A DNA stretch of 64,000 bases from Nitrosomonas eutropha (GTDB taxonomy: Bacteria > Pseudomonadota > Gammaproteobacteria > Burkholderiales > Nitrosomonadaceae). Shown one piece after another: positions 1 to 23,094 of this stretch. A program made the translations under genes and the position numbers. Below the pieces are notes generated by a model that was not told where the DNA came from, searched no databases, and saw only the letters and a list, made by a program, of their open reading frames with translations. The stretch is taken from NCBI RefSeq assembly GCF_003201195.1, contig NZ_QICQ01000011.1, positions 1-64,000 on the forward strand, written 5' to 3'. How positions within the stretch are numbered: position 1 is the first letter of the stretch; the number at the start of each line of letters is the position of its first letter.

Positions 1-160
1 TCGGTGCATCGTGGGTGAATTCCCGCTTCCGCCACTTCGCTACCGTTTTTGGATTAATCCCATGCCGCTTGGCCAGAACATTCAGACTCTCTTGACTATT
101 TTGTATCGCTCGACGTACCGCCGCTGTCGTGCGGGCGCTTCCGTGTAATATCTGTCCCAT
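1..160 (-). mobile_element. IS481-type transposase, N-terminal part (runs off the window)
   Basis: Reading the reverse strand from the ATG at 160 gives about 53 residues beginning MGQILHGSART, containing VLAKRHGINPKTVAKWRKR, the helix-turn-helix start typical of IS481-family transposases. A GGAGGGA ribosome site lies just upstream on the same strand. The rest lies beyond base 1, so I cannot say whether the element is intact. It points away from the siderophore operon. Confidence 0.75.
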
Positions 161-304
161 AAATCATCCCTCCGTAGCTGGTTATATGTTACACCAGCAC
201 ACCGTGGGACTAAACACCTAGGGAACAAGGTAAGTGGTAGTAGTTTTTGCTGTCAGCGTGTTGTGTCAGTAATAGCTAATGCTTGAATATGATAATAGAA
301 ATAG

Positions 305-340
305 TTATAATTTATATGATTATTATCATATAAATTATAA
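305..340. promoter_or_regulatory. 36-bp perfect palindrome upstream of the siderophore operon (candidate Fur-type operator)
   Basis: Two perfectly complementary 16-base arms (305-320 and 325-340) flank a 4-base centre (TATT). The core reads ATGAT-TATT-ATCAT, which resembles the GATAAT/ATTATC half-sites of Fur boxes. It ends 23 bases before the ATG at 364 and about 8 bases before the AAGGAG ribosome site. The position and AT richness fit an operator overlapping a promoter. The symmetry is directly seen; the link to Fur is an inference from the iron-uptake genes downstream. Confidence 0.6.
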
Positions 341-363
341 AAATAAAAAGGAGTTAACTAAGG

Positions 364-2175
364 ATGGATGATCGGGAAATTCTGCTTCAGGCACCAAACC
401 CCAATTATCTTGCTGCGCGTCGCCGGACTTTGCGACAGCTTCTTGAATCCATGCTGTTCGAGAACATTCTTGAGTATTCGGAGAGGTTGCTTTCGATAGG
501 TTGTTCCGAGTACGCCATTAAAGCGATAGATGCCAATGGAAAATCTGTCAGTTATTTAACCAAGGGAGTGAGGACTGTCAGTTACGGCAGAATCAGGTTA
601 CAAGATCCTGTCATCAGAATATCAGAACAATCGAGGGGTGAGGCGCTATCGATTGCCTTATTCCTTGGAGAGATCGCACCAGAAATTGATGGGGAAGAGA
701 ATAAATACAGCTTTTTTATCTCTGAATTGAACAATACAGTTGCAAAAAATGCGGAAGCATTAAGATTTAATTCAAATCTGAAGATTGCGGATTTGAATAC
801 ATCAGATTCTGTTTTTGATGCTTATGAAACGGCGGTATTCAATGGGCATCTATATCACCCTTGCTACAAATCCAGAATGGGATTCAATCTGGAGGAGAAT
901 CAGGAATACACCAATGATTTTGGTAGTCTGATTAATTTGACATGGCTGGCGATCCGTAGAGATCGGGCAAAAATCTATACACTTGATGGATTGAACATTG
1001 ACAAGTTGATTGCAGATGAATTGCAGCAAACATATCTGGATGAATTTGCCCGAATCATCATCAATGCTGGCAAGCGAGTAGAAGATTATATTTATCTACC
1101 AGTACATCCGTGGCAATGGAAGGAAAAGATTGTATTTGAATATGTAGATGATATTGCCAATGGAGATGTAATATTCCTGGGAAGTCATACAGATAAGTAC
1201 AGTCCACAACAATCCCTAAGATCTCTCTCCAATCAGACCAGGAAGAGTGCCCATACAGTCAAGATTGCATTATCAATCATTAATACATCTGCTGATCGTC
1301 TGCTTTCCCCGCATAACGTTGCCAATAGCGCAATAATTTCCCAATGGCTTGCTTCCATACTGCAAAGCGATCTCTATCTGAAGGATGAATTGAGGTTTAA
1401 TTTTATCAAAGAGGTGGCTGGTATTTATGATGACAAATCTCATCTGCCTGAAATAGTAGAAAGAAGAAAATTCGGGTTAATCGGTACGATATGGCGGGAA
1501 AGCATCCATACGTATCTCCAGCCGGAAGAATTTGCCATACCTGCTACGGCACTGTGTTTTCTGGATTCTCAGAACAAGTCCGTATCGGATGACTGGATTG
1601 CTGCATATGGATTGCAGGCATGGACAGAAAAGTTGCTCGATGTTTTGCTCAAGCCATTCATACATTTGCTGTATGCACACGGTATCGGGTTTGAGGCGCA
1701 TGCGCAAAATACTATTCTGTTCTTCCGGGATGGATTGCCTGTCAGGGTGGCAGTTAGGGATCTGCCGGGAGGAATCAGATTTGCGCGTGATTATCTTCAG
1801 AAGCCGGCATCCTGCCCCATGTTGCTGGATGCTCCGAAATATCGGTTGACTCCCGGTGAAAGATCCGTACTGGATGCCACTCCGCAGGAGTTGGTTTGGT
1901 ATCTGCATGATGCGATATTTTTTGTCCATCTGGCTGAAATTGCCCGTTTCCTGCATATGCATCAAGGGCTTGATGAATCCGAGTTCTGGAAAATGGCCTC
2001 TCGTGTCATTGAAGATTACCAGGACAAATTCCCTGAGTTGGATAAGCGATACAACGCGCTGGATTTATTTCAGACTCAAATCAGATTGAGCCAGTTTTCC
2101 AGAAAGAAAATATTTGCTGATACTAGCGAAAATGCTTATCAGCATGTGATGAATCCCCTGAAACGTAGCTTCTGA
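364..2175 (+). CDS. NIS siderophore synthetase (IucA/IucC family), first copy
   Basis: 603-residue ATP-dependent synthetase that would join a carboxylate such as citrate to an amine or amino-acid derivative in a non-ribosomal siderophore pathway in the cytoplasm. The family signature HPCYKSRMG lies at about residues 165-173, VHPWQW at about 247-252, and a C-terminal HAQN...VRDLPGG segment matches the ferric-reductase-like C-terminal region of the family. Length is usual. The start has an AAGGAG site at 349-354. It is the first gene of a same-strand run of two synthetases, exporter, decarboxylase, receptor and PepSY protein. I cannot assign the substrate class; with the second synthetase at 3400 it could make a two-step dicitrate siderophore. 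Confidence 0.93.
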   Translation: MDDREILLQAPNPNYLAARRRTLRQLLESMLFENILEYSERLLSIGCSEYAIKAIDANGKSVSYLTKGVRTVSYGRIRLQDPVIRISEQSRGEALSIALFLGEIAPEIDGEENKYSFFISELNNTVAKNAEALRFNSNLKIADLNTSDSVFDAYETAVFNGHLYHPCYKSRMGFNLEENQEYTNDFGSLINLTWLAIRRDRAKIYTLDGLNIDKLIADELQQTYLDEFARIIINAGKRVEDYIYLPVHPWQWKEKIVFEYVDDIANGDVIFLGSHTDKYSPQQSLRSLSNQTRKSAHTVKIALSIINTSADRLLSPHNVANSAIISQWLASILQSDLYLKDELRFNFIKEVAGIYDDKSHLPEIVERRKFGLIGTIWRESIHTYLQPEEFAIPATALCFLDSQNKSVSDDWIAAYGLQAWTEKLLDVLLKPFIHLLYAHGIGFEAHAQNTILFFRDGLPVRVAVRDLPGGIRFARDYLQKPASCPMLLDAPKYRLTPGERSVLDATPQELVWYLHDAIFFVHLAEIARFLHMHQGLDESEFWKMASRVIEDYQDKFPELDKRYNALDLFQTQIRLSQFSRKKIFADTSENAYQHVMNPLKRSF

Positions 2176-2217
2176 TTCCAGCCTGACAATTGATTTGTCA
2201 TGAAAGCAAGGAATGCT

Positions 2218-3390
2218 ATGCGACGTAACGGGTATTTCCTAAAACTGGTGACCGCAGGCCATTTCTCGGCCATGTTTGCTGCATTCAGCATTCCGCCATT
2301 CTTATCCACGATTCTGACAGGCAGTTTCCCGGATGGCCTGTCATATCTGGGGATATGCTATGCAGCGCCAGTGCTTGCAGCATTCCTTGGTTACCCGTTG
2401 CGTATGGTGCTGACTACAAGAATCGGGGAAAGGAAAGCCCTTATTGCGAGTCATATCGCATTGGCAGTCATCATGTCAGGAATGTCAGTGGCTGATAGTC
2501 CTGCCATGTTTTTGTGCGGACTGATTCTGCAAGGTTTCGTGGCACCGACATTTGCTACTTCCAGCAGCTATTTGGCGTGTCGACTCAATCAAGATGAGCT
2601 TGTGACGGGAATCAGAGCGTTGCAGCTAATTACCAGGGTTGCTGCAGTGCTTGGGCCTTCACTACTGGGAGGTGTCATTCTTTATTTCAGCAGGCCATTA
2701 CAGGTTTATCTGCTCTTGGCCCTTTTGCTGCTGATTACTGCTTTTCTGCTGACATTATCACTACCGAGCGAATCAGAAAATTCTCAAAAGAAAGCAACAG
2801 GAAAGGATCTGATGCGAAGTGGAAATGGATATCAGCTATGGAAGCCATATATTGCGCAGGTGCTGATTTTATTTTCAGCATCACTTTATGCACCCCATTT
2901 CATTACGTATTTGCAGACAGAAGTGAAGGTCATACCAGATTCGCTTTTGGGGACTGTGTTCTCAATACCCAGTATTGCGTATTTATGCAGCGTTCCTTTA
3001 TTGCAGCCTATCAGGAAACTAAGAAATGTGACTCTGTTATGCACTGGATTCATGCTGGTGATGCTCGGACTGATAGGGCAATGGCAATGCCAGCAATGGA
3101 TGATGGTGATTATTTGCCAAGCTGGCATCGGGATGGGCACTTTTATCTCTTTTACAGGAATCAATCTATATCTGGTCAGTGTGACGCAAATCCTGGGTGC
3201 TACCAAAACATTCTTTCGTTTCGAGTTGACTGGCCGGTGCGCCATGGCAGCAGGGGCGATTACAGGTGATTTTCTGGTAGGTATTGCAGGTATCAAAGCA
3301 CCATTTCTGGTATCGAGCGCTTTGATGATCTGTGCCTTAGTATTTTTCTTCTCAATCTGTTCACGATCTGAGACTCAACAATCATTTTAA
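2218..3390 (+). CDS. MFS transporter, probable siderophore exporter
   Basis: About 390-residue integral membrane protein of the major facilitator superfamily with around 12 hydrophobic segments and no signal peptide. Placed between two IucA/IucC-type genes, it most likely exports the finished siderophore, as SbnD, SfaA and FslB do in comparable clusters. An upstream in-frame ATG at 2200 exists, but only the ATG at 2218 has a ribosome site (AAGGA, 2208-2212), so I prefer 2218. The gap from the first synthetase is short and that to the next gene only 9 bases, supporting one transcript. The substrate is inferred from position. Confidence 0.85.
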   Translation: MRRNGYFLKLVTAGHFSAMFAAFSIPPFLSTILTGSFPDGLSYLGICYAAPVLAAFLGYPLRMVLTTRIGERKALIASHIALAVIMSGMSVADSPAMFLCGLILQGFVAPTFATSSSYLACRLNQDELVTGIRALQLITRVAAVLGPSLLGGVILYFSRPLQVYLLLALLLLITAFLLTLSLPSESENSQKKATGKDLMRSGNGYQLWKPYIAQVLILFSASLYAPHFITYLQTEVKVIPDSLLGTVFSIPSIAYLCSVPLLQPIRKLRNVTLLCTGFMLVMLGLIGQWQCQQWMMVIICQAGIGMGTFISFTGINLYLVSVTQILGATKTFFRFELTGRCAMAAGAITGDFLVGIAGIKAPFLVSSALMICALVFFFSICSRSETQQSF

Positions 3391-3399
3391 GGAGGCTTT

Positions 3400-5214
3400 A
3401 TGGCAGTGCCTGCATATAAATTACCGCAAGTATCCGCTTCTTATGTCATCGCAGGGCAGCGTTGTGCAGAAACGCTATTGAATTGTTATTGCAGGGAAGT
3501 TGGAATGCCAGAGAAGGCAACCCGAATATGTAATCTTAGAGATATTGGCAGTTGGCCGGTTTCAATCAGGCTGGCTCTGGCGGGTAAGCAGGTGCTGGAA
3601 ATATCCATGTCGAGAATAAAGGCTCGAATCATTGTGGCGGTCGAAAGATATTCTGATACGGCTAATTTTATATATCTTTCTTCGATATATTCCAAGAAAA
3701 CGGGGGAATCATGGATGCACCAAGATTGGAAAGGTCTGGCGCACCTGATTATTCATGATCTGGCGATCAAGCATAATGAAAGTTTTAATGAAGAATTGCT
3801 GGATCAGATTGAAGATAGCGTCAGTGTTACTGCCGAGATTCTTGAAGATGATCGAAGAGATACATTGCCAGAGAATCCTCTGGAAGCATATCTCTGTTCT
3901 GAGCAATCCTTGATCTACGGTCATCCTTTCCATCCTGCACCAAAAAGCAGACAAGGCTTCAGCCAAAATGATCTCAGGAAATATTCTCCCGAGTTCGGTC
4001 AGGGATTTCCTTTGCATTATTTTGCTGTCCATGAAAATTTTGTTTATCAGAAAACGACCATAGAATCTGATTGTGCGGAAATCATTGCTCAAATGGCACC
4101 TTCCGAAATCAGGCCAAATCTTCCTTATATTCTGGTTCCTTGTCACCCATGGCAAGCCAAATGGTTATTGGACAATCCTCTTGTCCGGTCGGCGATCAGT
4201 CAAGGGAAGTTGAAAAATATTGGCTCAGCCGGAAAACATTTTTATCCTACATCATCAATACGTACTCTGTATCAACCGGAAAACCCCTATTTCTACAAAT
4301 TCTCATTACACGTCAGATTGACCAACTGCATTCGCAAGAATGCAGTTTATGAGCTGGAGAGTGCGTTACAGATCAATAAAATCATGGCAGGGGTCATGGA
4401 GTCCATTTCTGAAAAATTCCCAGGCGTGTCTATTTTGGCAGAACCCGCATTCTTGTCTGTCGACTTGAAAGAGCCAGATGAGAATACGAGTAGGGAGGTT
4501 ACAGAGGGGTTCGGAGTGATATTGCGTAAGAACTTCGATAAGCGACATCTGGATAACGGAGTTACGCCCTTATTGGCAGGGGCGCTGTTTGGGAATCATA
4601 CACTTGGATGCGCTTATTTACGCGACATCATTTCCGCCCTGAGCGAGGCTGAGGGGCAGAATTCGGAAAGTACTCGTATCCGGTGGTTTTCTGCTTATGT
4701 ACAGAAAGTCATGTATCCGATCCTCGAATGCTATTTTGCGCATGGCATAGTTTTTGAGCCGCATTTGCAGAATGTAGTGATCGGACTTTCTGATAACAGA
4801 CCCACTCATGTCTATCTGAGGGATTTTGAAGGTGTCAAGCTGATTCTGGAATCATACCCGGAGGATAAGCTTTCCGGAGTCAGTGCGCGAACCCACGAAA
4901 GTCTTTGGTATTCCTCTGAACAAGGCTGGAATCGGATTTGTTATTGCCTATTCGTCAATAATTTTTGTGAGGCAATCCATCAGATCAGTCTGGGTGATGT
5001 GCATCTGGAACGCTTACTGTGGCAAGAGGTAAAGCATCATTTGAAGCATTATCAATCCCGTTACGGAACAGCGCTTTCAGAAGGGAGAATTGACGGGTTG
5101 ATCAATGGCCATGCATTCCCGAGCAAGGCGAATCTGAGCAACCGATTCAGGATGCAGGCTGACAAATTGGCCGGATATATGCCTCTGATTAACCCGATGG
5201 GGAGGTTGTCATGA
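3400..5214 (+). CDS. NIS siderophore synthetase (IucA/IucC family), second copy
   Basis: 604-residue paralogue of the first synthetase. It has the longer family signature HPFHPAPKSRQG at about residues 175-186, PCHPWQAKW near 247, and a C-terminal FEPHLQN plus YLRDFEG segment that matches the ATP and carboxylate-binding regions of IucA/IucC enzymes. A strong AAGGAGG site lies at 3390-3396. Its stop codon overlaps the next start (ATGA at 5211-5214). Two synthetases plus a PLP decarboxylase is the set used to build two-citrate siderophores such as staphyloferrins; which amine links the citrates cannot be read from sequence. Confidence 0.93.
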   Translation: MAVPAYKLPQVSASYVIAGQRCAETLLNCYCREVGMPEKATRICNLRDIGSWPVSIRLALAGKQVLEISMSRIKARIIVAVERYSDTANFIYLSSIYSKKTGESWMHQDWKGLAHLIIHDLAIKHNESFNEELLDQIEDSVSVTAEILEDDRRDTLPENPLEAYLCSEQSLIYGHPFHPAPKSRQGFSQNDLRKYSPEFGQGFPLHYFAVHENFVYQKTTIESDCAEIIAQMAPSEIRPNLPYILVPCHPWQAKWLLDNPLVRSAISQGKLKNIGSAGKHFYPTSSIRTLYQPENPYFYKFSLHVRLTNCIRKNAVYELESALQINKIMAGVMESISEKFPGVSILAEPAFLSVDLKEPDENTSREVTEGFGVILRKNFDKRHLDNGVTPLLAGALFGNHTLGCAYLRDIISALSEAEGQNSESTRIRWFSAYVQKVMYPILECYFAHGIVFEPHLQNVVIGLSDNRPTHVYLRDFEGVKLILESYPEDKLSGVSARTHESLWYSSEQGWNRICYCLFVNNFCEAIHQISLGDVHLERLLWQEVKHHLKHYQSRYGTALSEGRIDGLINGHAFPSKANLSNRFRMQADKLAGYMPLINPMGRLS

Positions 5215-6413
5215 TGTTTGATGCTGAAAAATTCATATCGGTCATCCATGATTTGGCTCATCCGGATAAATCGTTATGCGCCTATTTGTATGATCTTGGG
5301 GCACTTGCATCTCATGCGAGAAATATCAAGAGTAGCTTACCGGACAGAGTGAATTTCTTTTATGCGATCAAGGCTAATTCTGACCTGCCTATATTATCTG
5401 CGTTGGCAGAACATGTAGATGGTTTTGAAGCCTCTTCTGGGGGGGAGATTCAATGGGTGCGGCAGAATTTTCCAGATGTGCCTTTGATATTCAGCGGGCC
5501 TGGGAAGCTAGATACAGAACTCGAATTGGCCATCTTGAACAATGTGACTGTGCATATCGAGAGTCGGTTTGAATTAGAAAGATTGTTGCACATTGCAAGA
5601 CACTATCAACAGCCAGCGGAAATCTTGTTGCGGGTGAATCCTCATTTTGAAGATTTACGAGCAACTTCTCTCATGATGGGGGGGAAACCGACTCAATTTG
5701 GCATCAGTGTGGAGCATTTGTCAGATTGCCTGAAAATGGTGAGGGATAACAGTGATTGTCTGTATTTCCAGGGGTTCCATTTTCACTTACTTTCACATCA
5801 ATTAGATGCCGCTCAACATTTACGCCTGTTATCTGCCTATATCGAACAGGCAGTGAAATGGAAAGAGGAATTCAATCTTGTTATAGATCACATTAATGTA
5901 GGAGGTGGGATTGGTGTCAATTACAAAGACATCGATCAGCAGTTTGACTGGTGTCATTTTTCGCATGGCTTGAACAATCTGCTGATTGGAGCCGCTAAAA
6001 ACATTCCAAAAATCCGGTTTGAGATGGGTCGGTATGTTTCTGCTTTCTGCGGCGTATATGTAGCAGAAGTGATCGACATCAAAACATCGGGGAATGGAAC
6101 ATATGTCGTAGTGAAAGGAGGTACGCATCATTTTCGTACACCTTATGCCCAAAATCATAGCCATCCATTCAAAGTTATTCCTGTCTCGACCTGGAAGAAA
6201 CCATATTCCAGACCTGGTTTGAGGCATGGGAAGGTCAATATTGTGGGGCAATTGTGTACCCCTAAGGATTTATTGGCTTTTGATGAAATGGTGGGTGAAA
6301 TTCGAGTGGGAGATATTGTTCTGTTTTCGCATGCAGGAGCATATGCCTGGCATATATCCCACCATGATTTTCTGCGTCATGCTCATCCCCAGCATATCTA
6401 TTTGCCAGCTTAG
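5211..6413 (+). CDS. PLP-dependent decarboxylase, type III fold (SbnH/LysA/ornithine decarboxylase-like)
   Basis: 400-residue enzyme of the alanine-racemase-fold decarboxylase group. FYAIKAN (about residues 50-56) supplies the PLP lysine K54; GGGIGVNY and EMGRYV bind PLP phosphate and pyridine; a C-terminal CTPKD and GAYAWHISHHDF segment supplies the second-subunit active-site residues. In sbn-type clusters the homologue SbnH decarboxylates a citryl-diaminopropionate intermediate; in rhizoferrin clusters a related enzyme makes putrescine from ornithine; in staphyloferrin A clusters a racemase takes this place. The ISHHDF ending reminds me most of SbnH. The start overlaps the upstream stop by four bases and has GGAGG at 5201-5205. 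Confidence 0.88.
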   Translation: MMFDAEKFISVIHDLAHPDKSLCAYLYDLGALASHARNIKSSLPDRVNFFYAIKANSDLPILSALAEHVDGFEASSGGEIQWVRQNFPDVPLIFSGPGKLDTELELAILNNVTVHIESRFELERLLHIARHYQQPAEILLRVNPHFEDLRATSLMMGGKPTQFGISVEHLSDCLKMVRDNSDCLYFQGFHFHLLSHQLDAAQHLRLLSAYIEQAVKWKEEFNLVIDHINVGGGIGVNYKDIDQQFDWCHFSHGLNNLLIGAAKNIPKIRFEMGRYVSAFCGVYVAEVIDIKTSGNGTYVVVKGGTHHFRTPYAQNHSHPFKVIPVSTWKKPYSRPGLRHGKVNIVGQLCTPKDLLAFDEMVGEIRVGDIVLFSHAGAYAWHISHHDFLRHAHPQHIYLPA

Positions 6414-6468
6414 GCTGGCGTACCCCCCATTTATTTCATTATTTTTCAACACTATCAAAAATTATAAT

Positions 6469-8631
6469 ATGTCGAACAATAAAATGTATGGAGTCAGCGT
6501 CATGGTCGGTGCCTTGCTAGGTACTATGCCGATGGAGGGATTGGCTATAGAGGATGAGAGTGAAAAGGCAGGAGCAGTGACGGAGTTGCCCGTGATCGAG
6601 GTGCAGGGAAGTACCAGGAGGGGACCAGATGAATTGCCTAGTATGTATACGGGAGGACAGCAGGCACGAGGGGCGCGCGTAGGATTACTGGGTAACAAAG
6701 ATTTGATGGAAACCCCCTTCAGCATAACGAGTTATACGGCACAAACGATCAAAGATCAGCAAGCACGAACAGTGGCGGATGTGATGTTGAATGATGCTTC
6801 TGTCAGATCCGTCAATCCGTCTTCCGGGCGCTTTGAGCAATTCAGTATCCGTGGCTTTACGGTGCTCAATAGTGAGGTGGCATTTGGTGGATTGTATGGC
6901 ATTGTGCCGACTTATTCCATACCGGTGGAAGCGACAGAGCGTGTGGAAATCATTAAAGGACCGAATGCTTTACTAAATGGTATGGCGCCAAGCGGTGGGG
7001 TTGGCGGAACAATCAATGTCGTGCCTAAGCGAGCAGTTGACAGGCCAGTAATCCAGCTTACCGGTTCTTATCTCTCCGATAGTCAATTTGGCGGTCATGT
7101 GGATATTGGGCGGCGTTTTGGCAAGGACAATCGTCTAGGTATCCGGCTTAACAGTGTTTATCAGAATGGTGATACCCCATTCAGACATCAATCCATACGG
7201 CGTAACATCCATACTCTGGCACTGGATTTCCGTGGAGAAGCGTTACGTTTGTTCGCAGATGTTGCCTATCAGGATCGCCGTGTAGAGGCCCCATTGGAGC
7301 GGGTTGGGGTGGTTAGTGGAGTGAAGCCTCCGTCAGCTAGACGTGTTGATTCTGGTATGACGCCATCGTGGACTGATGCGAATGTTCAAGATATTTATGG
7401 CGTATTTAGAGTGGAATACGATATCTCTCCGGTTTTCAATGCCTATGCAGCCATTGGTGCGAGGCGGGGAGACAACGATTTTATGCGGGCTACAGTGAGC
7501 GTAAAGAATGCCGGTGGGGATTTCATGACGCAACCCTTCCAGTATTTGTATAAGGAAAATGCGCTGTCGGCAGAAGCTGGCCTGCATGCCATGTTTGAAA
7601 CTGGTGCTATCATGCATGCGATCAATTTGGGTATGAGTGATTTCCGATTGGAATATGGGAATGCGCGGCAGAGTTTTGACAGTATCCAATCCAATATTTT
7701 TAATCCAGTTGAACATCCTGAGCCAGTTACGGGCGGCTTGTCTCATCATTTACCAATTGTGAATAAAACGCATCTGTCGAGTATTGCGCTGACCGATACC
7801 CTATCCATACTGGATGAACAGATACAGTTGACTTTGGGAGCCCGCATACAGCAGGTGGAGGTGAATGGCTATAGTCCAGTCACCGGTGCCAGGACAAAAC
7901 ATTATAATAAAGATGCTGTAACACCTGCGGTGGGGCTGCTGGTCAAACCGTGGAAGAAAGTCTCGCTGTATGCCAACTACATCGAGGCGCTTACCCAAGG
8001 ACCAACGCCTGCCGCCGGGGCTGTCAATATCAATGATATTTTTCCACCGTCCAGAACCAAGCAGGTGGAAGCAGGTATCAAGATGGATTTCGGCAAGCTG
8101 ATGACGACGGTCAGCCTGTTCAAAATCAGGCAGCCCAGCGGATTCACCAATCCCGCAACCCTTATTTTTGCTGTGGATGGTAAGCAACAGAATCAAGGGG
8201 TGGAAATGAATGTGTTTGGTGAGCCATTTTCCGGTGTCCGTATCCAGGGAGGGGTAATGTATCTTGATGGTGAATTGACCAAGACAGCAGGGGGTCTCAA
8301 TGATGGAAACACTGCGCCAGGCGTACCCAAGGTAGCTGCTAATCTGGGTGGTGAATGGGATATCAGAGTTATTCCCGGGTTGACACTGACAGCGCGCTCC
8401 ATCTACACGAGTGCGCAATATCTGGATGCTGCGAATACCCAGAAAATTCCCTCATGGGTGCGGTTTGATCTGGGCGCGAGATATGCGATAAGGCATATTG
8501 CAACTCCTGTGACGATCCGTGCCAATATTCTGAATGCATTCGATAAACAATACTGGTCATCTGCAGCAGCCAGTGGTTTGACATTGGGAGATAGGCGCAC
8601 GTTGATGTTGTCGGCAACGGTGGATTTCTGA
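6469..8631 (+). CDS. TonB-dependent siderophore receptor (ferrichrome/FcuA-like class)
   Basis: 720-residue outer-membrane receptor. I start at the ATG at 6469 because the open frame continues upstream through the end of the decarboxylase with unlike sequence, whereas this start gives a short export signal (about residues 1-26, ending LAIED). A plug domain follows (METPFSITSYTAQTIKDQQ, then SIRGFTV and VEIIKGPNALL), then a long beta-barrel ending in ATVDF with a C-terminal aromatic residue. The ribosome site is weak. As the fifth gene of the operon it is the obvious importer for the ferric siderophore made by the same operon. Confidence 0.92.
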   Translation: MSNNKMYGVSVMVGALLGTMPMEGLAIEDESEKAGAVTELPVIEVQGSTRRGPDELPSMYTGGQQARGARVGLLGNKDLMETPFSITSYTAQTIKDQQARTVADVMLNDASVRSVNPSSGRFEQFSIRGFTVLNSEVAFGGLYGIVPTYSIPVEATERVEIIKGPNALLNGMAPSGGVGGTINVVPKRAVDRPVIQLTGSYLSDSQFGGHVDIGRRFGKDNRLGIRLNSVYQNGDTPFRHQSIRRNIHTLALDFRGEALRLFADVAYQDRRVEAPLERVGVVSGVKPPSARRVDSGMTPSWTDANVQDIYGVFRVEYDISPVFNAYAAIGARRGDNDFMRATVSVKNAGGDFMTQPFQYLYKENALSAEAGLHAMFETGAIMHAINLGMSDFRLEYGNARQSFDSIQSNIFNPVEHPEPVTGGLSHHLPIVNKTHLSSIALTDTLSILDEQIQLTLGARIQQVEVNGYSPVTGARTKHYNKDAVTPAVGLLVKPWKKVSLYANYIEALTQGPTPAAGAVNINDIFPPSRTKQVEAGIKMDFGKLMTTVSLFKIRQPSGFTNPATLIFAVDGKQQNQGVEMNVFGEPFSGVRIQGGVMYLDGELTKTAGGLNDGNTAPGVPKVAANLGGEWDIRVIPGLTLTARSIYTSAQYLDAANTQKIPSWVRFDLGARYAIRHIATPVTIRANILNAFDKQYWSSAAASGLTLGDRRTLMLSATVDF

Positions 8632-8636
8632 CTGCC

Positions 8637-9845
8637 ATGACATCTACTATTCGTTCAGGTGTGCGATCCAGATCATTTTGGGTAAGGTTACATCGTTATG
8701 TCGGGCTGGTCATTGCCGTTTTTCTAATTGCGCTGGGATTGACTGGCAGTGTGATTGCTTTTGAGCGCGAACTAGATGCCTGGTTAAACCCAGAGTTGTT
8801 TCATGTGCCAGAGCGTGCTGTGCCAGTGTTGTCGCTGGATACACTGGCCAGACATGCGCAGCAGTTTGATCCTGAGGCTGAGATTATCACGATACGGATC
8901 AAGCGTGACCATGGAGAAAGTATCAGGGTTGACCTGAAAACGGAGCAGGGCACGATGCGGGAGCTGTTTTTGAATCCGTTTAGTGGTGAGGCACTGGGAG
9001 CGAGGGTGCGCGGCGCGTTTGTCATGGATCGAGCACATGTTATTCCCATGGTGTATAGGTTGCATACTAATCTTTACCTGCCGGGGCGCTGGGGTGTTTG
9101 GTTGCTGGGCGGCATTGCCCTTATCTGGATGGTGGATTGTCTCGTTGGTTTTTATCTGACACTCCCTCCGCCATTGAGATCAAAGGAAAAGAACAATTCT
9201 TGCAGAAACTGGTTGTCGCGCTGGAAACCATCGTGGAGCATCAAGAGACAGGCTGGTCAGGTCAGATTCAATTTTGATCTGCACCGAGCAAGTGGCCTGT
9301 GGTTGTGGCCTGTGCTCTTCATGATGGCAATGAGCGGCACGTATTTCAACCTGAATGCGGAGGTATTCAGGCCAATCGTAGGATTGTTCGGGGATTTGAC
9401 ACCTGATCCACGTAAAACGCTGCCCGGGACGTTGCAATCAGGTGTTGACCCAGTATTGGGTTTTTCAGATGCGGTATTGGTGGTGCATCAGTGGTTGCCG
9501 GCTGGAAATGATAATCTGGAATTGTCGTTTGTGAGGTATATGCCTGCCCTGAATGTATATCGCGTGGCTTTTGATCAGAAGGGGAGGGGAAGCGAAGTGT
9601 TTGCGATCAAAACGGAGCAGGTGTTCATTGACGGTAACGCCGGTACATTGACAGGGCGCCGAGGGTATGACAGTGGTACCAGAGCGGATCGTTTTCTTGC
9701 TTGGCAATTCCCAATACATAGTGGACAGATATTAGGTATATATGGACGTGTACTGATATGCATCACGGGAATATTGACCGCAATGCTAACCATGACGGGT
9801 GTTGTTATCTGGCGCAAGAAATGCAAGAGCAGGAGGATCAAGTAA
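8637..9845 (+). CDS. PepSY-domain membrane protein (PepSY-associated TM), iron-uptake partner
   Basis: 402-residue inner-membrane protein with four hydrophobic segments: RSFWVRLHRYVGLVIAV near the N-terminus, one near 150-165, one after the FDLHRASGLWLW motif, and one close to the C-terminus. Proteins of this PiuB/PepSY_TM family accompany TonB-dependent receptors and are thought to help reduce ferric siderophores in the periplasm. It starts 5 bases after the receptor stop, so it is probably co-translated. A related 414-residue copy is at 21751-22995 in the second cluster. Confidence 0.9.
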   Translation: MTSTIRSGVRSRSFWVRLHRYVGLVIAVFLIALGLTGSVIAFERELDAWLNPELFHVPERAVPVLSLDTLARHAQQFDPEAEIITIRIKRDHGESIRVDLKTEQGTMRELFLNPFSGEALGARVRGAFVMDRAHVIPMVYRLHTNLYLPGRWGVWLLGGIALIWMVDCLVGFYLTLPPPLRSKEKNNSCRNWLSRWKPSWSIKRQAGQVRFNFDLHRASGLWLWPVLFMMAMSGTYFNLNAEVFRPIVGLFGDLTPDPRKTLPGTLQSGVDPVLGFSDAVLVVHQWLPAGNDNLELSFVRYMPALNVYRVAFDQKGRGSEVFAIKTEQVFIDGNAGTLTGRRGYDSGTRADRFLAWQFPIHSGQILGIYGRVLICITGILTAMLTMTGVVIWRKKCKSRRIK

Positions 9846-9848
9846 ATG

Positions 9849-10043
9849 CTATACAACCCGGGTTTTTCTGTCTGCATTCTCGGTAATATGGTTGGCAAGT
9901 TTAGCCAGGGTTTTAGTCGGGCTAATACCGATACAGGTGGACAGGCCCGTCCATTGTAGGATTTTAGCGCGAGTTTCACGCGCCCTGCGAGTCACATCAG
10001 GGTCCCCTGCAACCCGATAAAGCACTCTTCTGGGGCTTGCCAT
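9849..10043 (-). pseudogene. umuC (DNA polymerase V catalytic subunit) fragment
   Basis: The reverse strand encodes about 64 residues including RVLYRVAGDPDVTRRARETR and GISPTKTLAKLANHI, a hallmark stretch of Y-family UmuC polymerases (the substrate-holding little-finger side of the palm). Only this piece of the roughly 420-residue protein is present. It has no catalytic acidic motifs and cannot be functional. It lies immediately after the PepSY gene and marks the junction between the first siderophore operon and the accessory region. Confidence 0.75.
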
Positions 10044-10428
10044 CCGTTAGAATAGCTGTATTCTCTTTCTTATCTCCTTGAGACGAATAACAGAAAGAAG
10101 TTGGGGGAAAATAAAATCGATGGATAACTTTTTTGATACGTTGGTAGGAGATGGATTCGCCTATCTGCTCAGAAGCGTTAATGAATCACACTTAAGAAAG
10201 CCGTGGCTTCCAACCTCGTGCTGATAGTGAACAACTCGTTGATATGTTTTTTTGTTGGACTGAGTGTTAAGTTATTTCACATTGGTTCGAAGTTTTGAGG
10301 CGCTCGCGCAGAATATAGTGATGAGGGCGGTGATCTTATCATGTATCTTCTTGGATTGGATTAAAAAGGTATAGAGTCGTAATACTCAAGAATCAAGGCA
10401 TTTGATCTGCTTCATCAGATAAGAACCC
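10044..10428. other. Intergenic stretch without a recognisable gene
   Basis: This 385-base AT-rich gap separates the umuC fragment from the decayed recombinase. A short open frame from the ATG at 10120 (34 residues, MDNFFDTLVGDGF...) has a purine-rich stretch in front but no likeness I recognise. I see no clear repeat, tRNA or terminator. It is probably another remnant of mobile DNA. Confidence 0.4.
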
Positions 10429-11407
10429 ATGGAACTTATTTACTCTACCGAGTATTTCTTGCTCAAGGGGCAGCCCTATCCTGGATTCCCCATTCTTCTG
10501 TATGACTTGATGGAAAGCTGCGTCCATGCGAATAGCTTCATGCGGCATTACCTCCTGCGCGGTGCAATTGGATCAAGGCACTCATGGTTAAGTACTGGAA
10601 GGGCCATGTATGATTACTTCAGCTTTCTCCAGGCTCATGAATTGAATTGGTGTGATGTTCAACGTGGAGAAGCACACAGCCTCGTTGCAGCATATCGGGA
10701 CTACTGTCTGGATACGATTGGGTTCGCGCGCAGTACGGTGAACCAACGCTTGCTATATGTTTGTGAATTCTACAAATACGCCTTCAATGAGGATTGGGTA
10801 GATGCTCTTCCATTTGATTATGAAGAGCGCAACATCAATCGAACTGGTTATTTTGCCCACGCCGATGCCTCTGGCGGAAAAATCATGGTGAGGGATGTCA
10901 GCCTAAAAGAGCACCATACTCTTCCGAAATTTCTGTCCAAAGACGAGATTAAGACATTAATTAGTGCTGCAAACAGGTCTGCGTCGAGAAGAAATCGCTA
11001 CATTCCCACTGGTGTATGTAATGGTGCCCAATCTCTCTGCGAACGGTGAGGCCAACATTCGCATTCGACTCGACCCCCGAGATGGACATGGAATCCGAAC
11101 GAAGGGATCCAAACCTCGTGACATTTACGTCAGCCGAAGGTTTATGAGAGACCTGAATCACTACGCTATCCACGCGCGTGTCGACATCTAGGTTCATCCC
11201 CACATGCTGCGTCATACCTACGCCACTCATACACTTTGCGCCATGCAGCGGTCCAACTCGGGTATTGACCCATTGGTGTTTGTTCAACGTCAGCTTGGGC
11301 ACTCTTCGATTCAGACGACCATGATTTATCTGCACTTGATCAACGAATGCGCGGAAGAAGCGATGTTGGCCTACAACGATGAACTCAACGACTGGATGGA
11401 TGATTGA
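10429..11407 (+). pseudogene. Tyrosine recombinase/integrase, broken by a frameshift and a deletion
   Basis: Three consecutive pieces of one phage-integrase-type recombinase are visible. The N-terminal SAM-like core-binding part runs from 10429 to about 10965. The first catalytic arginine piece (MLQTGLRREEIATFPL) runs in another frame from 10964 to the TAG at 11189-11191. The C-terminal catalytic piece follows in the third segment (HMLRHTYATHT and LGHSSIQTTMIYLH, with HxxR and the tyrosine). The part between the stop and HMLRH is shorter than in intact enzymes. The gene is therefore inactive. It sits directly beside the left end of the second metallophore cluster and suggests that a mobile element brought this region in. 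Confidence 0.82.
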
Positions 11408-11516
11408 TGGGGATAAAGAAAATCTTTGTTAAAGCGAATTTAACTATCCCAATGGTTGAACAGGTTCGTGACCATGTTGGTCAGAATGTGATTGTGCTAA
11501 GCTCGTCTGCCGCGAC
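11407..11516 (+). pseudogene. Truncated start of the gene downstream of the recombinase
   Basis: The recombinase stop (11405-11407) overlaps an ATG at 11407 that opens a reading frame MGIKKIFVKANLTIPMVEQV, clearly unlike the sequence after about 11510, where the frame becomes antisense to the MFS gene. One-base overlap of stop and start suggests this was the next gene of the same mobile element. I do not recognise the protein. It is cut off where the reverse-strand cluster ends, so this point is a probable recombination junction. Confidence 0.4.
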
Positions 11517-13013
11517 TCAAGATGTGCGGCAGGAAATCAGCGCCGCCGCCAGTACGATCAGCATCGACGTTGCGGAAATGAATTGCATGCTGGCGGTAAA
11601 TGCGTGCCGTGAGGCAGTAAGCAACTCGATCCTTGCAGGTTCCAGTAATTTGTCAGCGATGGCGACCGCCGCGCTCAGGGAACCATTTGCATATGTGAGA
11701 GCATCTTCGGGCACGCCCGATAATGATTCAGGAGAAAACTCCATGCGGTAGATCAGGCTAGCGAGGCTGCCCAACAGGGCGATGCCCAGCGCACCACTGA
11801 GTTCGGAGCCTGTCTCGGACAATGCTGCCGCAGCCCCCGCCCGCTCCGAAGGGGCTTGAGCGATGATTAGCTCGACGCTGAAGGTGAACAGCGGTGTCAG
11901 CCCCAGCGCCAGCATCACTGTCCCGGTAATAATTACTTCCTTGTCAGACGAACCACCTACTTGCGTCAACAGGGCAAATCCCAATGCCGACAACAACAGG
12001 CCACAGGTGGTGATGCGGCAGGGATGCCAATAGCGTGCGATGCGCGGTGCCGTGGCGGAGCCAATCATGAAGGCACCCCCCCAGGGCGCAAGCCAGCAGG
12101 CGGCCTTGAATGGCGAAAGATCGAGCACTAGTTGCAGATACTGGGTCAGAAGGATTGAGAGTCCGAACAACACAAAGAAGCCGAATGCGTAGCTGAGCAT
12201 GGCCGCGGAAAAGCCTGGCCTGCTGAACAGCTGCAGATCCACCATGGGATAGGCCAGTCGCGTCTGACGATGCAGAAATACTCCGGCCAGCGCCACACCA
12301 ACGAGCAGCGATAAAACAGGCCACCAACTCAGCCCTTGTCCTGCCCCCTCTTTTATACCGTACACAACAGCCAATACGGCGCCTAGCGATAACAGTACGC
12401 TACACAGGTCGACACGGCCCGGGGCCGGATCGCGATATTCAGGCAGCAGCCAGGGACCCAGTGCCAACAACAGCAACATTGCAGGTACGGAGATGAGAAA
12501 TATCGAGCTCCAATGAAAATGCGTAATCAGTATCCCGCCCAGCAAGGGGCCGACTACTGCTCCGGCCGAGAAGCTAGCCATCCAGATGCCGATAGCTGTC
12601 GTCCGTTCGTTCTTGTTGTGAAACATATTGCGAATCAGTGAGAGCGTGGACGGCGCCAACGTTGCGCCGGCCACTCCGAGCAAGGCGCGAAGAAGAATCA
12701 AGGTGCCGGCACTTTTGACCAGTGCAGCGAGGACCGAGACAATGCCAAAAGCCGCTGCACCAATCAATAACAGTCGCCGTCGCCCGATGCGGTCGCCGAT
12801 AGTACCCATGGTGATCAGGAAGCCGGCAACCATGAAGCCATAGATATCCACCATCCATAACATCTGTGCGTTAGTGGCGTTCAGCGCTGCATTGATGGTC
12901 GGTAGTGCCAAGGTCATGATCGTCAGATCCATGGAGTACAGCAGACATGGCAGGGCGATTACTGCTAAGCCGATCCATTCGCGCCGCGTGGCCTTGGCCG
13001 CTATGCTGATCAC
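11517..13013 (-). CDS. DHA2-family MFS exporter of the second cluster
   Basis: 498-residue transporter with about 14 membrane segments. It carries the family motif DIYGFMVAGFLITMGTIGDRIGRRR (loop 2-3, motif A-like) and LGVAGATLAPSTLSLIRNMF plus WMASFSAGAVVGPLLGG (motif C of drug:H+ antiporters). Relatives such as SmvA export toxic organic cations; here, as the last gene of a receptor/biosynthesis cluster, it probably exports the product. It lies 169 bases after the asparagine-synthetase homologue. The C-terminus is short (ALISCRTS) and ends exactly where the recombinase remnant begins, so a few residues may have been lost and replaced. Confidence 0.85.
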   Translation of the reverse strand: MISIAAKATRREWIGLAVIALPCLLYSMDLTIMTLALPTINAALNATNAQMLWMVDIYGFMVAGFLITMGTIGDRIGRRRLLLIGAAAFGIVSVLAALVKSAGTLILLRALLGVAGATLAPSTLSLIRNMFHNKNERTTAIGIWMASFSAGAVVGPLLGGILITHFHWSSIFLISVPAMLLLLALGPWLLPEYRDPAPGRVDLCSVLLSLGAVLAVVYGIKEGAGQGLSWWPVLSLLVGVALAGVFLHRQTRLAYPMVDLQLFSRPGFSAAMLSYAFGFFVLFGLSILLTQYLQLVLDLSPFKAACWLAPWGGAFMIGSATAPRIARYWHPCRITTCGLLLSALGFALLTQVGGSSDKEVIITGTVMLALGLTPLFTFSVELIIAQAPSERAGAAAALSETGSELSGALGIALLGSLASLIYRMEFSPESLSGVPEDALTYANGSLSAAVAIADKLLEPARIELLTASRHAFTASMQFISATSMLIVLAAALISCRTS

Positions 13014-13182
13014 GGAATAGCCAGCCTAGGCAGCCGTCTCTGGTAAAGTTGGATCGCCAGAGGTTCAGCCTCGACCTGCCGTCGGTGTCGTAATCCGCAT
13101 AGGGATAACGTAGACATCACTGACATCAGATCGAGCTGGTCTTTCTGGGTGCCTCCATTTATGCTGAATTGAGCGGTATTTA

Positions 13183-15003
13183 TCACTGGTATGCCGTCGG
13201 ATCTTTGGGACTTAGGTAAGACGAGTGGCGGCGTGCGATGACATCCATACCGTGCAAGCGGTAGAAGATGTCATAGCCGCGGCTCCCTCGCTCGCGCCAA
13301 GCCCGTCGGAGATAGGCCATGTCAAACAGACCAAGCTTATCAAGGCCGCTATCCGGCTCCAGCGAACTCTCCATACGCGCCTCAAACTCGGGCGATGCAT
13401 ATACCATCTGCGGCACTGGAAAGCCAATCTTCTTTCGGCTCGAGATTGCGCTAGGGAGCCAGGGTGCCATCGCCTGCTTGAAGATCCATTTTTCTGAATC
13501 CTCATAGTGCTTGAGCCTCGGTAGAAAGGAAAACGCGCTTTGAATGACCTGCTGGTCGGCTAGTGGGATTCTGACTTCAATACTGTGCGCCATGCTGGCC
13601 ATGTCTATCTGACGATATTCAGAGACTACGCACTCGCCGTGATAATCGAGCAGGCAAGTGAGCTGTTGGCTGTCCTGCGTATCATGCGCGTACAGATCGA
13701 GATAGGGCTGCACGGCGGAAATGAAGGCGGCGCGAGCATCGACCTCAAGCATCAGTTGCCCGAGGTCGATATCCCCCACCGCATTGAAATAATCGAAATA
13801 GGCACCCGCTACCAGCCTCGAGGGGGTGATTTTCAGCCTGTGTCCATGACTGTAACCATCGAATACCTCGTCCGGCCCGCTGCCACAAAACGCTACGCGA
13901 TAACCGTCGGCGGCGATTTGCTCGAGCAGCAGGAACAGACAGACCGCCTCGGGTGCACCATTCGGTTCGCAGCACAGCGACCACCAACGGTCCATGGCCT
14001 CGCAATAGATCTGGCTCGTCACCTCAATTTCCCGGTGCTCCGTGCCGAAGGCTTCGGCCACCAGCCGAGAGTAGCTGAACTCGTTATGCATGATGGCACC
14101 TGCCCTCAACCCAGATTCGGGAAAACCGATAGCATAGGTGTGCAGTTCCAAGCCCTGGCTCCTAGCTCGGGCTACCACGCTGGACGAATCAATGCCGCCG
14201 CTTAATAAATAGGCATACGGAACCTCCAGGTCGAAACAGCGTGTGCAGCCTGCAGCCACTGCGTCCCGAATACGTTCGGTGATTGCGGTGACATCCTGTT
14301 GCAATTCATCACCGATGACGATCTTGTGATAGCGCCGATGACGCGGGCGTTCACCCTGTTCGACGACCAGGCAACATCCAGCCTCAAGCTTCTTGATCTC
14401 GCGGATATGAGTATGGGGGCCAAATACGAACATGATGCCCGCGGCCTGGGCCAAACCTTCGCGGTCCCAGCTGAAGTTGAGATGAGGGATACGCAAAATG
14501 GTCTCAATATCCGAGGCAAAATACAGTTCGTCCCCGTCCCCAAGCGTGTAGTACAGTGGCTTTTGTCCCGTTGGATCCACAGCCAGCAGCGTTCGTCTGG
14601 CCGACCGATCGTGCAGACAGAAGGCAAACATGCCCTCGAGCATGCTTAGCATGTCCAGGCCATGACGTTGGTAGATGGCAAGCAGGCTCTCGGTATCCGA
14701 TTTGGTACGGAAGTGATAGTCCGGACACAAGCGCCGCAGATCGAGATGATTGTAGATTTCACCGTTGAAGGTCAGGGTCAGCATGCCGTCGGCACTCTGC
14801 ATTGGCATGTCTGCCTCAGAATTGTGTATATCGGCCACGCGCAGACGAGTATTGCCCAGTACGACCCGTTCATCCGCGACCACCGTACCTCGGCTGTCCG
14901 GCCCGCGCCGTTGCATGGCATCGGTTCGCACCATGTCCTCGACTACCCTAATGCGCAAGGCCGCCGGAGTCTCGCGCCCAACGAACCCAGCGATTCCGCT
15001 CAT
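13183..15003 (-). CDS. Asparagine-synthetase (AsnB) homologue with Cys-to-Ser change at the glutaminase nucleophile
   Basis: 606 residues from the ATG at 15003 (MSGIAGFVGRE). An upstream ATG at 15063 overlaps the preceding gene and breaks the conserved start, so I reject it. The class II glutaminase domain is recognisable (RRGPDSRG, NTRLRVAD, FNGEIYNH at about 80-86), followed by the ATP-binding synthetase domain with SGGIDSSS at 268-275, GSGPDEVFDGY and a C-terminal RKKIGFPVP. The obligatory cysteine after the initiator Met (MCGIAGF in normal AsnB) is serine, so glutamine hydrolysis is unlikely. Beta-lactam synthetases and other AsnB-like ligases also lack this Cys and use amines as nucleophiles. 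The start lies one base after the stop of the fusion gene, so translation is probably coupled. I infer an adenylating amide ligase of the cluster product. Confidence 0.88.
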   Translation of the reverse strand: MSGIAGFVGRETPAALRIRVVEDMVRTDAMQRRGPDSRGTVVADERVVLGNTRLRVADIHNSEADMPMQSADGMLTLTFNGEIYNHLDLRRLCPDYHFRTKSDTESLLAIYQRHGLDMLSMLEGMFAFCLHDRSARRTLLAVDPTGQKPLYYTLGDGDELYFASDIETILRIPHLNFSWDREGLAQAAGIMFVFGPHTHIREIKKLEAGCCLVVEQGERPRHRRYHKIVIGDELQQDVTAITERIRDAVAAGCTRCFDLEVPYAYLLSGGIDSSSVVARARSQGLELHTYAIGFPESGLRAGAIMHNEFSYSRLVAEAFGTEHREIEVTSQIYCEAMDRWWSLCCEPNGAPEAVCLFLLLEQIAADGYRVAFCGSGPDEVFDGYSHGHRLKITPSRLVAGAYFDYFNAVGDIDLGQLMLEVDARAAFISAVQPYLDLYAHDTQDSQQLTCLLDYHGECVVSEYRQIDMASMAHSIEVRIPLADQQVIQSAFSFLPRLKHYEDSEKWIFKQAMAPWLPSAISSRKKIGFPVPQMVYASPEFEARMESSLEPDSGLDKLGLFDMAYLRRAWRERGSRGYDIFYRLHGMDVIARRHSSYLSPKDPTAYQ

Positions 15004-15004
15004 C

Positions 15005-16948: not shown

Positions 16949-17033
16949 AGTCGGAAACTCTCTAATCTTGTTTAAGATGATGGGAGTGAAAATGGCACAA
17001 GAAGGTGGTCACTAAAGACCTCCGCAGTCTCTT

Positions 17034-17711
17034 TCATCGTACCTTCTCACAGCGGAAGGCATAGTTGTGGACATACTCCGCGTCGACATGGTTAATAACC
17101 TTCTGGTACCATGCGCTCGGTTTTGAGAGCGAGGTGTAGCCCTTGGGCACGATGCGCTTGATGCTGGTCTTGAAGCCGACCCCGATGAAGGCATCAGCGA
17201 TATCATCCAAGGTGTGCTCCTTGACCTTGATGGCGGCGAAGCGATTGATTGCCGTTCGCAGTTCGGTACCAGCGTCGTCGTTCATGTAGTCCGGGTGTGT
17301 AGCGAAATAGATACCACCAGGCTTCAGTACTCGGTATATCTGCTGAGCATGGTCTCTCAGATCTTCTATCAGATAGATCACCGCCGTGCTGATGGCGATA
17401 TCGAACCGGTTCTCAAAATCGGCCATAGTGTCGGTGGCAATGTATTCGATCGGGCGATCACCACATCTCGAACGGGCGACTTCGATCGAACTGCGGGCTA
17501 AATCGACGCCAACGGCCTGGCGGAATTTGTGTTCGTCGTACAGCTTGCGCAGGAATCCACCTTGGTTGCAACCAAAATCCAGCAGGATTTTGTCCGTAAG
17601 GCTGACATCAAAGGTCTGCGAGGCAACTCGCTCCCAGAACTCACCATGCTCGTCCTCCATCGACTGGTCACCAGTATCGGGTTCGGTCCACCACTGTTCA
17701 ATCATTTTCAT
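17034..17711 (-). CDS. Class I SAM-dependent methyltransferase of the second cluster
   Basis: 225-residue cytosolic enzyme. Motif I (ILLDFGCNQGGFL, residues 42-54) binds SAM; an acidic residue follows in VGVDLAR, then AISTAVIYLIEDL and RVLKPGGIYFATHPDY, the standard order for a Rossmann-fold methyltransferase of the Methyltransf_11 type. A good ribosome site (GGAGG, 17718-17722) precedes the start. It is separated by 171 bases from the receptor gene upstream and 85 bases from the fusion gene downstream, on the same strand. Substrate unknown; methylation of an amine or carboxylate of the cluster product is an inference from position. Confidence 0.85.
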   Translation of the reverse strand: MKMIEQWWTEPDTGDQSMEDEHGEFWERVASQTFDVSLTDKILLDFGCNQGGFLRKLYDEHKFRQAVGVDLARSSIEVARSRCGDRPIEYIATDTMADFENRFDIAISTAVIYLIEDLRDHAQQIYRVLKPGGIYFATHPDYMNDDAGTELRTAINRFAAIKVKEHTLDDIADAFIGVGFKTSIKRIVPKGYTSLSKPSAWYQKVINHVDAEYVHNYAFRCEKVR

Positions 17712-21745: not shown

Positions 21746-21750
21746 TGAAT

Positions 21751-22995: not shown

Positions 22996-23094
22996 GTATG
23001 ATTAATTATTTAACTAACTTTAATTACAATGGTGCCCAAACACAGCACCAGTGTTTGTTATATACCGATTATCCTTTCAAATCCGTTAATTTAG

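Follow-up and report, generated by a model that had tools for sequence, protein, structure and literature searches.

A 64,000-nucleotide stretch of Nitrosomonas eutropha DNA (contig NZ_QICQ01000011.1, positions 1 to 64,000; hereafter the window) carries an operon at 364-9845. Judged by its gene content, this is a real nonribosomal peptide synthetase-independent siderophore (NIS) operon of the IucA/IucC kind, with two synthetases, a major facilitator superfamily (MFS) exporter and a TonB-dependent siderophore receptor that scores over its family cut-off. By a modest degree, it is probable that the operon directs a citrate-serine route in which O-citryl-ethanolamine is formed, completed by the first synthetase (NIS1), exported and taken up again. 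The evidence is composed of open genes, the clades of the synthetases, substrate residues of AcsD that are kept and a gene set that recurs in other genomes; from these, every chemical step and the product are predicted.

The operon is composed of six open frames on the forward strand, in the order NIS1, MFS exporter, NIS2, decarboxylase, TonB receptor and PepSY protein. Successive genes are separated by 24 bp, 9 bp, a 4-bp overlap, 55 bp and 5 bp. A preliminary description of the window had read this run as one citrate-type NIS operon with an exporter, an SbnH-like decarboxylase, a receptor and a PepSY partner, and that reading is upheld by the open frames and by family matches far above chance. 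The features are as follows.

1..221, reverse strand: fragment of an insertion sequence (IS)-like dispersed repeat at the contig start, outside the system; it recurs at 98-100% on two further contigs of this genome as well as in the genomes G013 and G015, and more weakly elsewhere
2-163, reverse strand: transposase-like short frame inside the repeat fragment, named by eye
222..363, forward strand: promoter region, kept in the deletion scars of both G015 and G087 (see below)
305-340: near-palindrome (self-inverted match, 94%), a possible regulator site
Just before 364, forward strand: AGGAG-like ribosome site
364..2175, forward strand: NIS1, type C IucA/IucC synthetase with an LPGG loop (AVRDLPGGIRF); PF04183 218 bits, PF06276 111 bits
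2200..3390, forward strand: MFS exporter in the PvsC position; PF07690 (MFS_1) 72 bits
3400..5214, forward strand: NIS2, type A synthetase of the PvsD/AcsD clade; PF04183 213 bits and PF06276, AcsD best in the PDB
5211..6413, forward strand: pyridoxal phosphate-dependent decarboxylase of the SbnH/AcsE/PvsE kind; PF02784 (Orn_Arg_deC_N) 111 bits
6469..8631, forward strand: TonB-dependent siderophore receptor; TIGR01783 363 bits against a cut-off of 223.5, barrel 127 bits, plug 69 bits
8637..9845, forward strand: PepSY inner-membrane protein; PF03929 (PepSY_TM) 205 bits

The cut-off of PF04183 is 25 bits, and a genome-wide profile search found exactly two such synthetases in the entire 2.67-Mb genome. 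In the list of open frames the receptor begins at 6226; its ATG was placed at 6469 by comparison with the G015 orthologue (locus L106). The window begins where contig C11 begins. No truncated operon gene is seen at this edge, because 1-221 is IS-like repeat and 222-363 is promoter-like. The best match to a Fur box upstream of 364 is 13/19, a score that 8.1% of 2000 random sequences also attain and that is not significant; Fur control is therefore not claimed.

In the proposed route, NIS2 would adenylate citrate and couple it to L-serine, yielding O-citryl-serine. The decarboxylase would then strip the serine carboxylate to give O-citryl-ethanolamine. NIS1 would activate the remaining primary carboxylate of O-citryl-ethanolamine and link it to a nucleophile for which no gene of its own is required. 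A second citryl-ethanolamine could fill this role through its free amine, which would give a dimer or oligomer carrying at least two alpha-hydroxycarboxylates; a common cellular amine could serve instead. The second citryl unit is favoured because no gene for a further iron-binding arm is seen at the loci. The product would leave through the MFS exporter, and the TonB receptor would bring its ferric form back in. The PepSY protein is presumably the membrane partner for iron release or reduction. Type C synthetases are reported to act on citrate monoamide or monoester derivatives or on succinate monohydroxamates (PMC10700112).

NIS2 has AcsD, an enzyme that couples citrate to L-serine, as its closest PDB structure, at 274 bits. 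In a 53-row tree, NIS2 groups with PvsD from Cupriavidus necator pHG1 and from two Nitrosomonas genomes (support 100/100), and the PvsD/AcsD clade that holds it (100/98) is separate from the SbnE-type enzymes. A 26-row type A tree, for which the first 380 and 240 residues were trimmed from the over-long frames Mcys_SB2 and Ox_L224_A, places PvsD, AcsD and an Oxalobacteraceae branch in a single clade (100/100). A seven-row group around NIS2 (90/95) holds the type A enzymes of C. necator, of the two Nitrosomonas and of L116, L126 and L143, three loci described below. Of 14 compared AcsD positions, 13 are identical in NIS2, the exception being V304, which is isoleucine; E442, R501, K563 and R305 are among the identical ones. 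E442, R501 and K563 of AcsD recognize L-serine (PMC3323832). The type A enzyme of L126 stands outside this comparison; it is a 527-residue frame, and L126 matches NIS2 in two pieces, which may reflect a frameshift or an assembly error.

The decarboxylase is, by its matches, of the SbnH/AcsE kind. It scores 319 bits with the structure 6knh, which we take to be SbnH, and 31 bits with 7kh2, the structure of the N-citrylornithine decarboxylase FslC. It is 57% identical to the gene of the C. necator pHG1 operon.

NIS1 is a type C synthetase by its place in the 53-row tree, and its closest PDB structure is AsbB, at 354 bits. It occupies the PvsA-PvsB position of vibrioferrin operons. In a 17-row type C tree, NIS1 and the type C enzymes of L116, L126 and L143 form a clade with support of 100/99, and in the type C trees it lies outside the AcsA branch. 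The loop after the E-x-H-x-Q-N motif reads KDFHDG in enzymes of the SbnF/AcsA type and (K/R)DLPGG in NIS1 and these three relatives. In a wider type C tree, all eight rows with an LxGG loop form one clade (100/99). Both type C trees omit the long branches G009_aero1 and Ens_2, and the loci L222, L232 and L233 are in no tree. At the checked columns, NIS1 keeps R, K, E, H, N and D. From these placements, NIS1 and its relatives are a type C synthetase class of their own. The LxGG loop may contact the nucleophile. A structure prediction for NIS1 (AlphaFold, four-row alignment) had a mean predicted local distance difference test score of 55 and was set aside.

The same layout is found in other genomes. 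Named genomes were scanned for relatives of PvsD; this gave 211 confirmed places, of which the best 80 were examined. A PvsA match of at least 100 bits is present at 71 of these 80 loci. L122, L130 and L134 have a contig end on the PvsA side, and L182, L185 and L192, of which L192 lies on a contig of 5.2 kb, have neither PvsA nor a decarboxylase and only a weak second synthetase. The remaining three carry a strong type C gene instead of PvsA.

L116: Pseudoduganella ginsengisoli, same-layout locus
L126: metagenome-assembled genome (MAG) of Candidatus Methylobacter oryzae, same-layout locus that also has a PepSY gene (48%)
L143: groundwater gammaproteobacterial MAG, same-layout locus

These three loci have a common order of type C synthetase, MFS, NIS2, decarboxylase and TonB receptor, and each of their genomes, whose completeness is not given, has exactly two PF04183 proteins. 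The genes that flank L116 resemble housekeeping genes by eye. A four-row profile of the NIS1 class (E of 1e-100 or better, at most four candidates scored per genome) matched at least 16 of 294 genomes of the L116 family and at least 5 of 301 genomes of the L126 order, the starting genomes included. Among the matches listed, six in the L116 family have the LxGG loop and ten have FHDG; in the L126 order, three have LPGG and two have FHDG. The further LxGG loci are L233 (genome G1193), which has the full layout, L232 (G1282) and L221-L225 of the L116 family. The four biosynthetic genes thus recur together in L116, L126, L143 and L233. L222 stops at a contig end right after its type A gene. At L232:2508-4866, frames that resemble IS21 istA/istB by eye follow NIS2 in the LPGG operon of G1282.

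Loop type was compared with precursor genes in 28 hand-chosen loci, which are not a random draw and in which the window was represented by 1-10400. Within the stretches examined, none of the 11 LxGG loci has SbnA, SbnB, diaminobutyrate transaminase or lysine monooxygenase, and each of the 15 loci with an xHDG loop carries one or more of these precursor genes. Three of these 15 (L035, L036 and L113) match themselves, having supplied the queries for SbnA/SbnB, the transaminase and the monooxygenase. L225 (LHGG) was counted as LxGG and L113 (LHDG) as xHDG; L114 and L115 match neither loop and are in neither count, and eight more FHDG loci (L208-L214 and L216) are in no count. Type B scores at the LxGG loci are 0-87 bits, the background between synthetase types, with no strong type B match.

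In the window itself, no tblastn match at 1e-6 was found across the 64 kb for SbnB, an SbnG-like gene, PvsA, diaminobutyrate transaminase or lysine monooxygenase, and the sole SbnA-like match is a domain at 15.1-16.0 kb (110 bits). The preliminary description was right that SbnA, SbnB and a dedicated citrate synthase are absent from the operon. Beyond the window, the genome was searched for SbnB and PF04183; the search for PvsA covered the window. The operon also has no separate amino acid racemase gene of the kind that accompanies SfaB and SfaD in the staphyloferrin A pathway, although the decarboxylase has a 31-bit match to PF01168.

A staphyloferrin B-like product, with L-2,3-diaminopropionate (L-Dap) as the first amine, would draw this precursor from the neighbouring SbnA-like domain or from elsewhere. 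In its favour, the SbnF model matches NIS1 at 470 bits, the decarboxylase is SbnH-like, an SbnA-like domain does lie at 15-16 kb and AcsD accepts Dap (PMC3323832). Against this, the domain scores 145 bits with the SbnA model, whose cut-off is 350, and no SbnB exceeds its model cut-off anywhere in the genome. The domain also falls in a stretch that is absent from G087 at the same flank, and none of the ten other LxGG-class loci has an SbnA match in the stretches examined. The genome has no third synthetase, hence no type B, NIS2 lies outside the SbnE-type group and the 470 bits of NIS1 are below the SbnF cut-off of 900. We consider such a product quite unlikely, and the neighbouring domain is probably irrelevant to the operon, so the suggestion in the preliminary description that it supplies the amine is not borne out. 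The other suggestion made there, a rhizoferrin-like compound with ornithine or putrescine, fares no better. A dicitrate of the rhizoferrin or staphyloferrin A kind would fit two synthetases, a decarboxylase and an exporter with no precursor genes, and by general chemistry two citrates supply enough iron ligands; yet the FslA model scores 109 and 72 bits with the two synthetases against a cut-off of 1000, and the FslC model scores 39 bits against 500. FslA, Rfs, SfaB and SfaD are reported to be type A' (PMC10700112), whereas the operon pairs a PvsD-clade type A with a type C. AcsD activity with 2,4-diaminobutyrate is barely above background (PMC3323832), and for this reason ornithine is an unlikely substrate for so close an AcsD relative as NIS2. 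Such a dicitrate is highly improbable. The reported type A' assignment of SfaB and SfaD (PMC10700112) likewise weakens the idea that NIS1 adds a second citrate as SfaB does. A plain vibrioferrin operon in a PvsB-C-D-E-like order was also considered and dropped, NIS1 being type C.

A further alternative shares the first half of the citrate-serine route and differs in the last step, where NIS1 would join O-citryl-ethanolamine to a free diamine or polyamine, such as putrescine or spermidine, in place of a second citryl unit. This would require no amine gene, and the structure that NIS1 matches best in the PDB, AsbB, is that of an enzyme joining spermidine to citryl-spermidine (PMC6836290). By general chemistry, though, a single citrate flanked by plain amine arms would have few ligands for iron, and the LxGG loop differs from the xHDG loop of loci with precursor genes; we regard this variant as unlikely. 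It could also be that the operon is decaying, or that NIS1 is weakened, and that no useful siderophore is made. Close relatives have lost the operon by deletion, NIS1 lacks a glutamate that 20 of 21 compared type C rows retain and one member of the class is broken by IS21-like genes, but all six frames are open, NIS1 keeps the residues at the checked columns, NIS2 keeps 13 of the 14 AcsD positions and the same four biosynthetic genes recur in four other genomes. An operon of this unproductive kind is very unlikely.

Several observations weigh against the citrate-serine route itself. NIS1 is a long branch in both type C trees. The C-terminal glutamate of the VEQLxKRR motif is kept in 20 of 21 other type C rows, those of its own clade included, and is serine in NIS1, with KK in place of the neighbouring RR; this may mean a different substrate or a weakened enzyme. 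The type A enzyme of L143 joins the PvsD rows of C. necator and Nitrosomonas (93/94), so that the type A enzymes of the same layout are not one clade. E442, R501 and K563 are also kept in SbnE-type rows, and for AcsD L-Dap is a better substrate than L-Ser by a factor of about two (PMC3323832); for both reasons, the tested residues fail to separate serine from Dap. Serine is probably the substrate of NIS2 on the strength of its clade and of the absent SbnA and SbnB. L221 and L223-L225 have no decarboxylase, and decarboxylation is thus not essential to the LxGG class, while the L232 operon is broken by its IS21-like genes at the decarboxylase position. The LxGG loci form one clade, which makes the 11 of 11 correlation in effect one origin, and the absences at these loci apply to limited flanks close to the synthetases. 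Labels of the reference loci as Pvs, Acs or Sbn come from gene content and the known pathways, the records mostly reading 'IucA/IucC family protein', and the siderophore identity of these loci therefore rests on gene content.

Two Nitrosomonas relatives carry scars of the operon, which were found by a DNA search with window 1-10400 across 85 Nitrosomonas genomes. In G015, window 784 is joined straight to 6194, with GAAGA common at the junction and 84% identity beyond. The deletion of about 5.4 kb removes the rest of NIS1, the MFS gene, NIS2 and most of the decarboxylase, and the NIS1 remnant also carries an in-frame TGA. The receptor and PepSY genes of G015 are open and under purifying selection: the receptor has 85% identity and a ratio of nonsynonymous to synonymous substitution rates (dN/dS) of 0.11 over 713 codons compared, and PepSY has 87% identity and a dN/dS of 0.18 over 402. 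In G087, 581 is joined to 9823, and all that remains is the promoter, the beginning of NIS1 and the final bases of PepSY. Its right flank continues into window 24146-24774, which puts the scar at the same place as the window operon. Ffh protein identity to the window genome is 99% for G015, 95% for G016 and G048, 93% for G014 and 91% for G087. G016 (only 80% complete), G048 and G014 showed no operon remnant in the DNA search beyond IS-like or short PepSY-like matches. The deletions of G015 and G087 would thus have taken place in separate lineages, provided that Ffh, a one-gene measure, follows the species tree. Relatives of the receptor at E 1e-60 occur in 5 of the 85 genomes, the window genome included, with 85% identity in G015 and at most 50% in G014, G031 and G086.

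G014 (L199; contigs C27, C39 and C46) has several relatives of the operon receptor, at 37-50%, and no PF04183 protein; from this gene content it is possibly a user of foreign siderophores. A polymerase-like fragment at 9846-10040 on the reverse strand, which by eye we take to resemble a Y-family polymerase (UmuC), also lies beside the G015 and G087 loci and is matched in other relatives.

The roughly 14 kb at 10027-24146, missing from G087 at the same flank, resemble a second metallophore cluster. From the comparison of flanks, window 10.03-24.15 kb is either extra DNA in the window genome or DNA lost in G087. Its features are as follows.

10429-11049: integrase-like open reading frame, by eye
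11517-13013: DHA2 MFS
13183-15063: asparagine synthase
15005-16948: fusion of a part of about 310 residues without a Pfam match and the CysM/SbnA-like domain
17034-17711: methyltransferase
17883-20183: second TonB receptor
21751-22995: second PepSY

Nitrosomonas europaea is reported to lack siderophore production, by its genome and by chrome azurol S assay (PMC3050691). The preliminary description had called the operon notable on this ground, and its premise about N. europaea stands, but siderophore genes are not new to the family: PF04183 genes occur in 17 of 125 family genomes, the window genome included, siderophore genes are mentioned for N. communis (PMC4714114) and aerobactin genes are mentioned for N. 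eutropha in a review (PMC9693385). No description of an operon with a type A and an LPGG type C synthetase, or of this synthetase class, was found in open-licence literature, and a relative of the operon may be noted in the N. eutropha genome paper. No mention of a siderophore was found in PMC5960693.

If the citrate-serine route is correct, the operon encodes a compact citrate siderophore pathway that is self-contained and has no precursor gene of its own alongside. Such a pathway would recur in beta- and gammaproteobacteria, including an ammonia oxidizer and a methane oxidizer, and one short loop would be offered as a testable switch in nucleophile choice. In Nitrosomonas, an intact copy and two deletion scars would predict a producer and user species pair for the same compound, which bears on the idea that ammonia oxidizers such as N. 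europaea live on the siderophores of others. In a broader proposal, the LxGG type C enzymes would be a class that uses O-citryl-ethanolamine (or O-citryl-serine where there is no decarboxylase) as both donor and acceptor. The product would be a linear or ring-closed all-citrate oligomer, the carboxylate counterpart of the hydroxamate oligomers of the DesD type, and Nitrosomonas lineages would have turned from producers into users by cutting out the synthesis genes. This proposal is speculative and we consider it doubtful.

The loss pattern of G015 resembles that of the sfa locus of Staphylococcus lugdunensis, where a deletion of about 3.3 kb in the biosynthetic genes leaves the transporter kept and functional (PMC3996567). 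The likeness is in the loss pattern only, synthesis being deleted and uptake kept. The siderophore and the phylum are different, and the Staphylococcus case rests on growth assays whereas the present one rests on sequence.

For gene content, the vibrioferrin references were C. necator pHG1 (L031) and Nitrosomonas aestuarii (L117), those for achromobactin were L036, L108, L226, L227 and L234, and those for staphyloferrin B were L035, L039-L041, L109-L112 and L235. Operons resembling pvsA-E, with vibrioferrin-type gene sets of PvsA, PvsB, MFS, PvsD, decarboxylase and an SbnG-like gene, are found at L117, L123-L125, L127, L133, L160, L141, L152 and L194. Their hosts are N. aestuarii, several Candidatus Nitrotoga (nitrite oxidizers) and Methylobacter, that is, nitrifiers and methanotrophs. 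L039, L040 and L041 are operons of the staphyloferrin B type with SbnA, SbnB, three synthetases, a decarboxylase and a receptor. One is in G031, which is also a Nitrosomonas, and the others are in two family members from a different genus. At L035:2276-11160, a Bacillus badius plasmid operon has SbnA, SbnB, one type A and two type C synthetases and no type B, another unusual NIS combination.

Like the vibrioferrin operon pvsABCDE, the window operon has the PvsC-PvsD-PvsE order, with a PvsD-type synthetase and a PvsE-type decarboxylase. Identities to L031 and L117 are 47% and 50% for NIS2 and 57% and 55% for the decarboxylase, and 28% for the MFS in L117; with phmmer, the MFS matches six genes in the PvsC position at 77-112 bits. 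Unlike vibrioferrin operons, it has a type C synthetase in place of PvsA (ATP-grasp; window search) and PvsB (type B; genome-wide PF04183 search). Achromobactin loci share the combination of an AcsD-like type A, an AcsE-like decarboxylase and a type C synthetase, but the window operon is without the diaminobutyrate transaminase, the type B AcsC and the SbnG-like gene, and its loop is LPGG rather than FHDG. The type C synthetase (470 bits with the SbnF model, under the cut-off of 900) and the decarboxylase (319 bits with 6knh) may correspond to SbnF and SbnH of staphyloferrin B, and the receptor is close, at 569 bits, to one beside a Methylocystis operon of the staphyloferrin B type. Here, the differences are the lack of SbnA, SbnB, the type B SbnC and SbnG in the window operon, and a type A enzyme of the PvsD/AcsD clade rather than the SbnE type. 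From the rhizoferrin systems (FslA/LbtA/Rfs) it differs in having no type A' synthetase, as the FslA and FslC scores given above indicate.

The two-synthetase loci L221-L225 of Oxalobacteraceae resemble the window operon in their LxGG type C, their MFS and a type A inside the clade on the PvsD/AcsD side. A TonB receptor match is present at four of the five, and a PepSY gene lies beside L221. They differ in that the four with flank past the type A gene have no decarboxylase, and in that their type A enzymes form their own branch, at 34-37% identity to NIS2. We know of no characterized product for these loci. By its sequence, then, the window operon is of a known kind, and its gene set differs from those of the characterized pathways with which it was compared.

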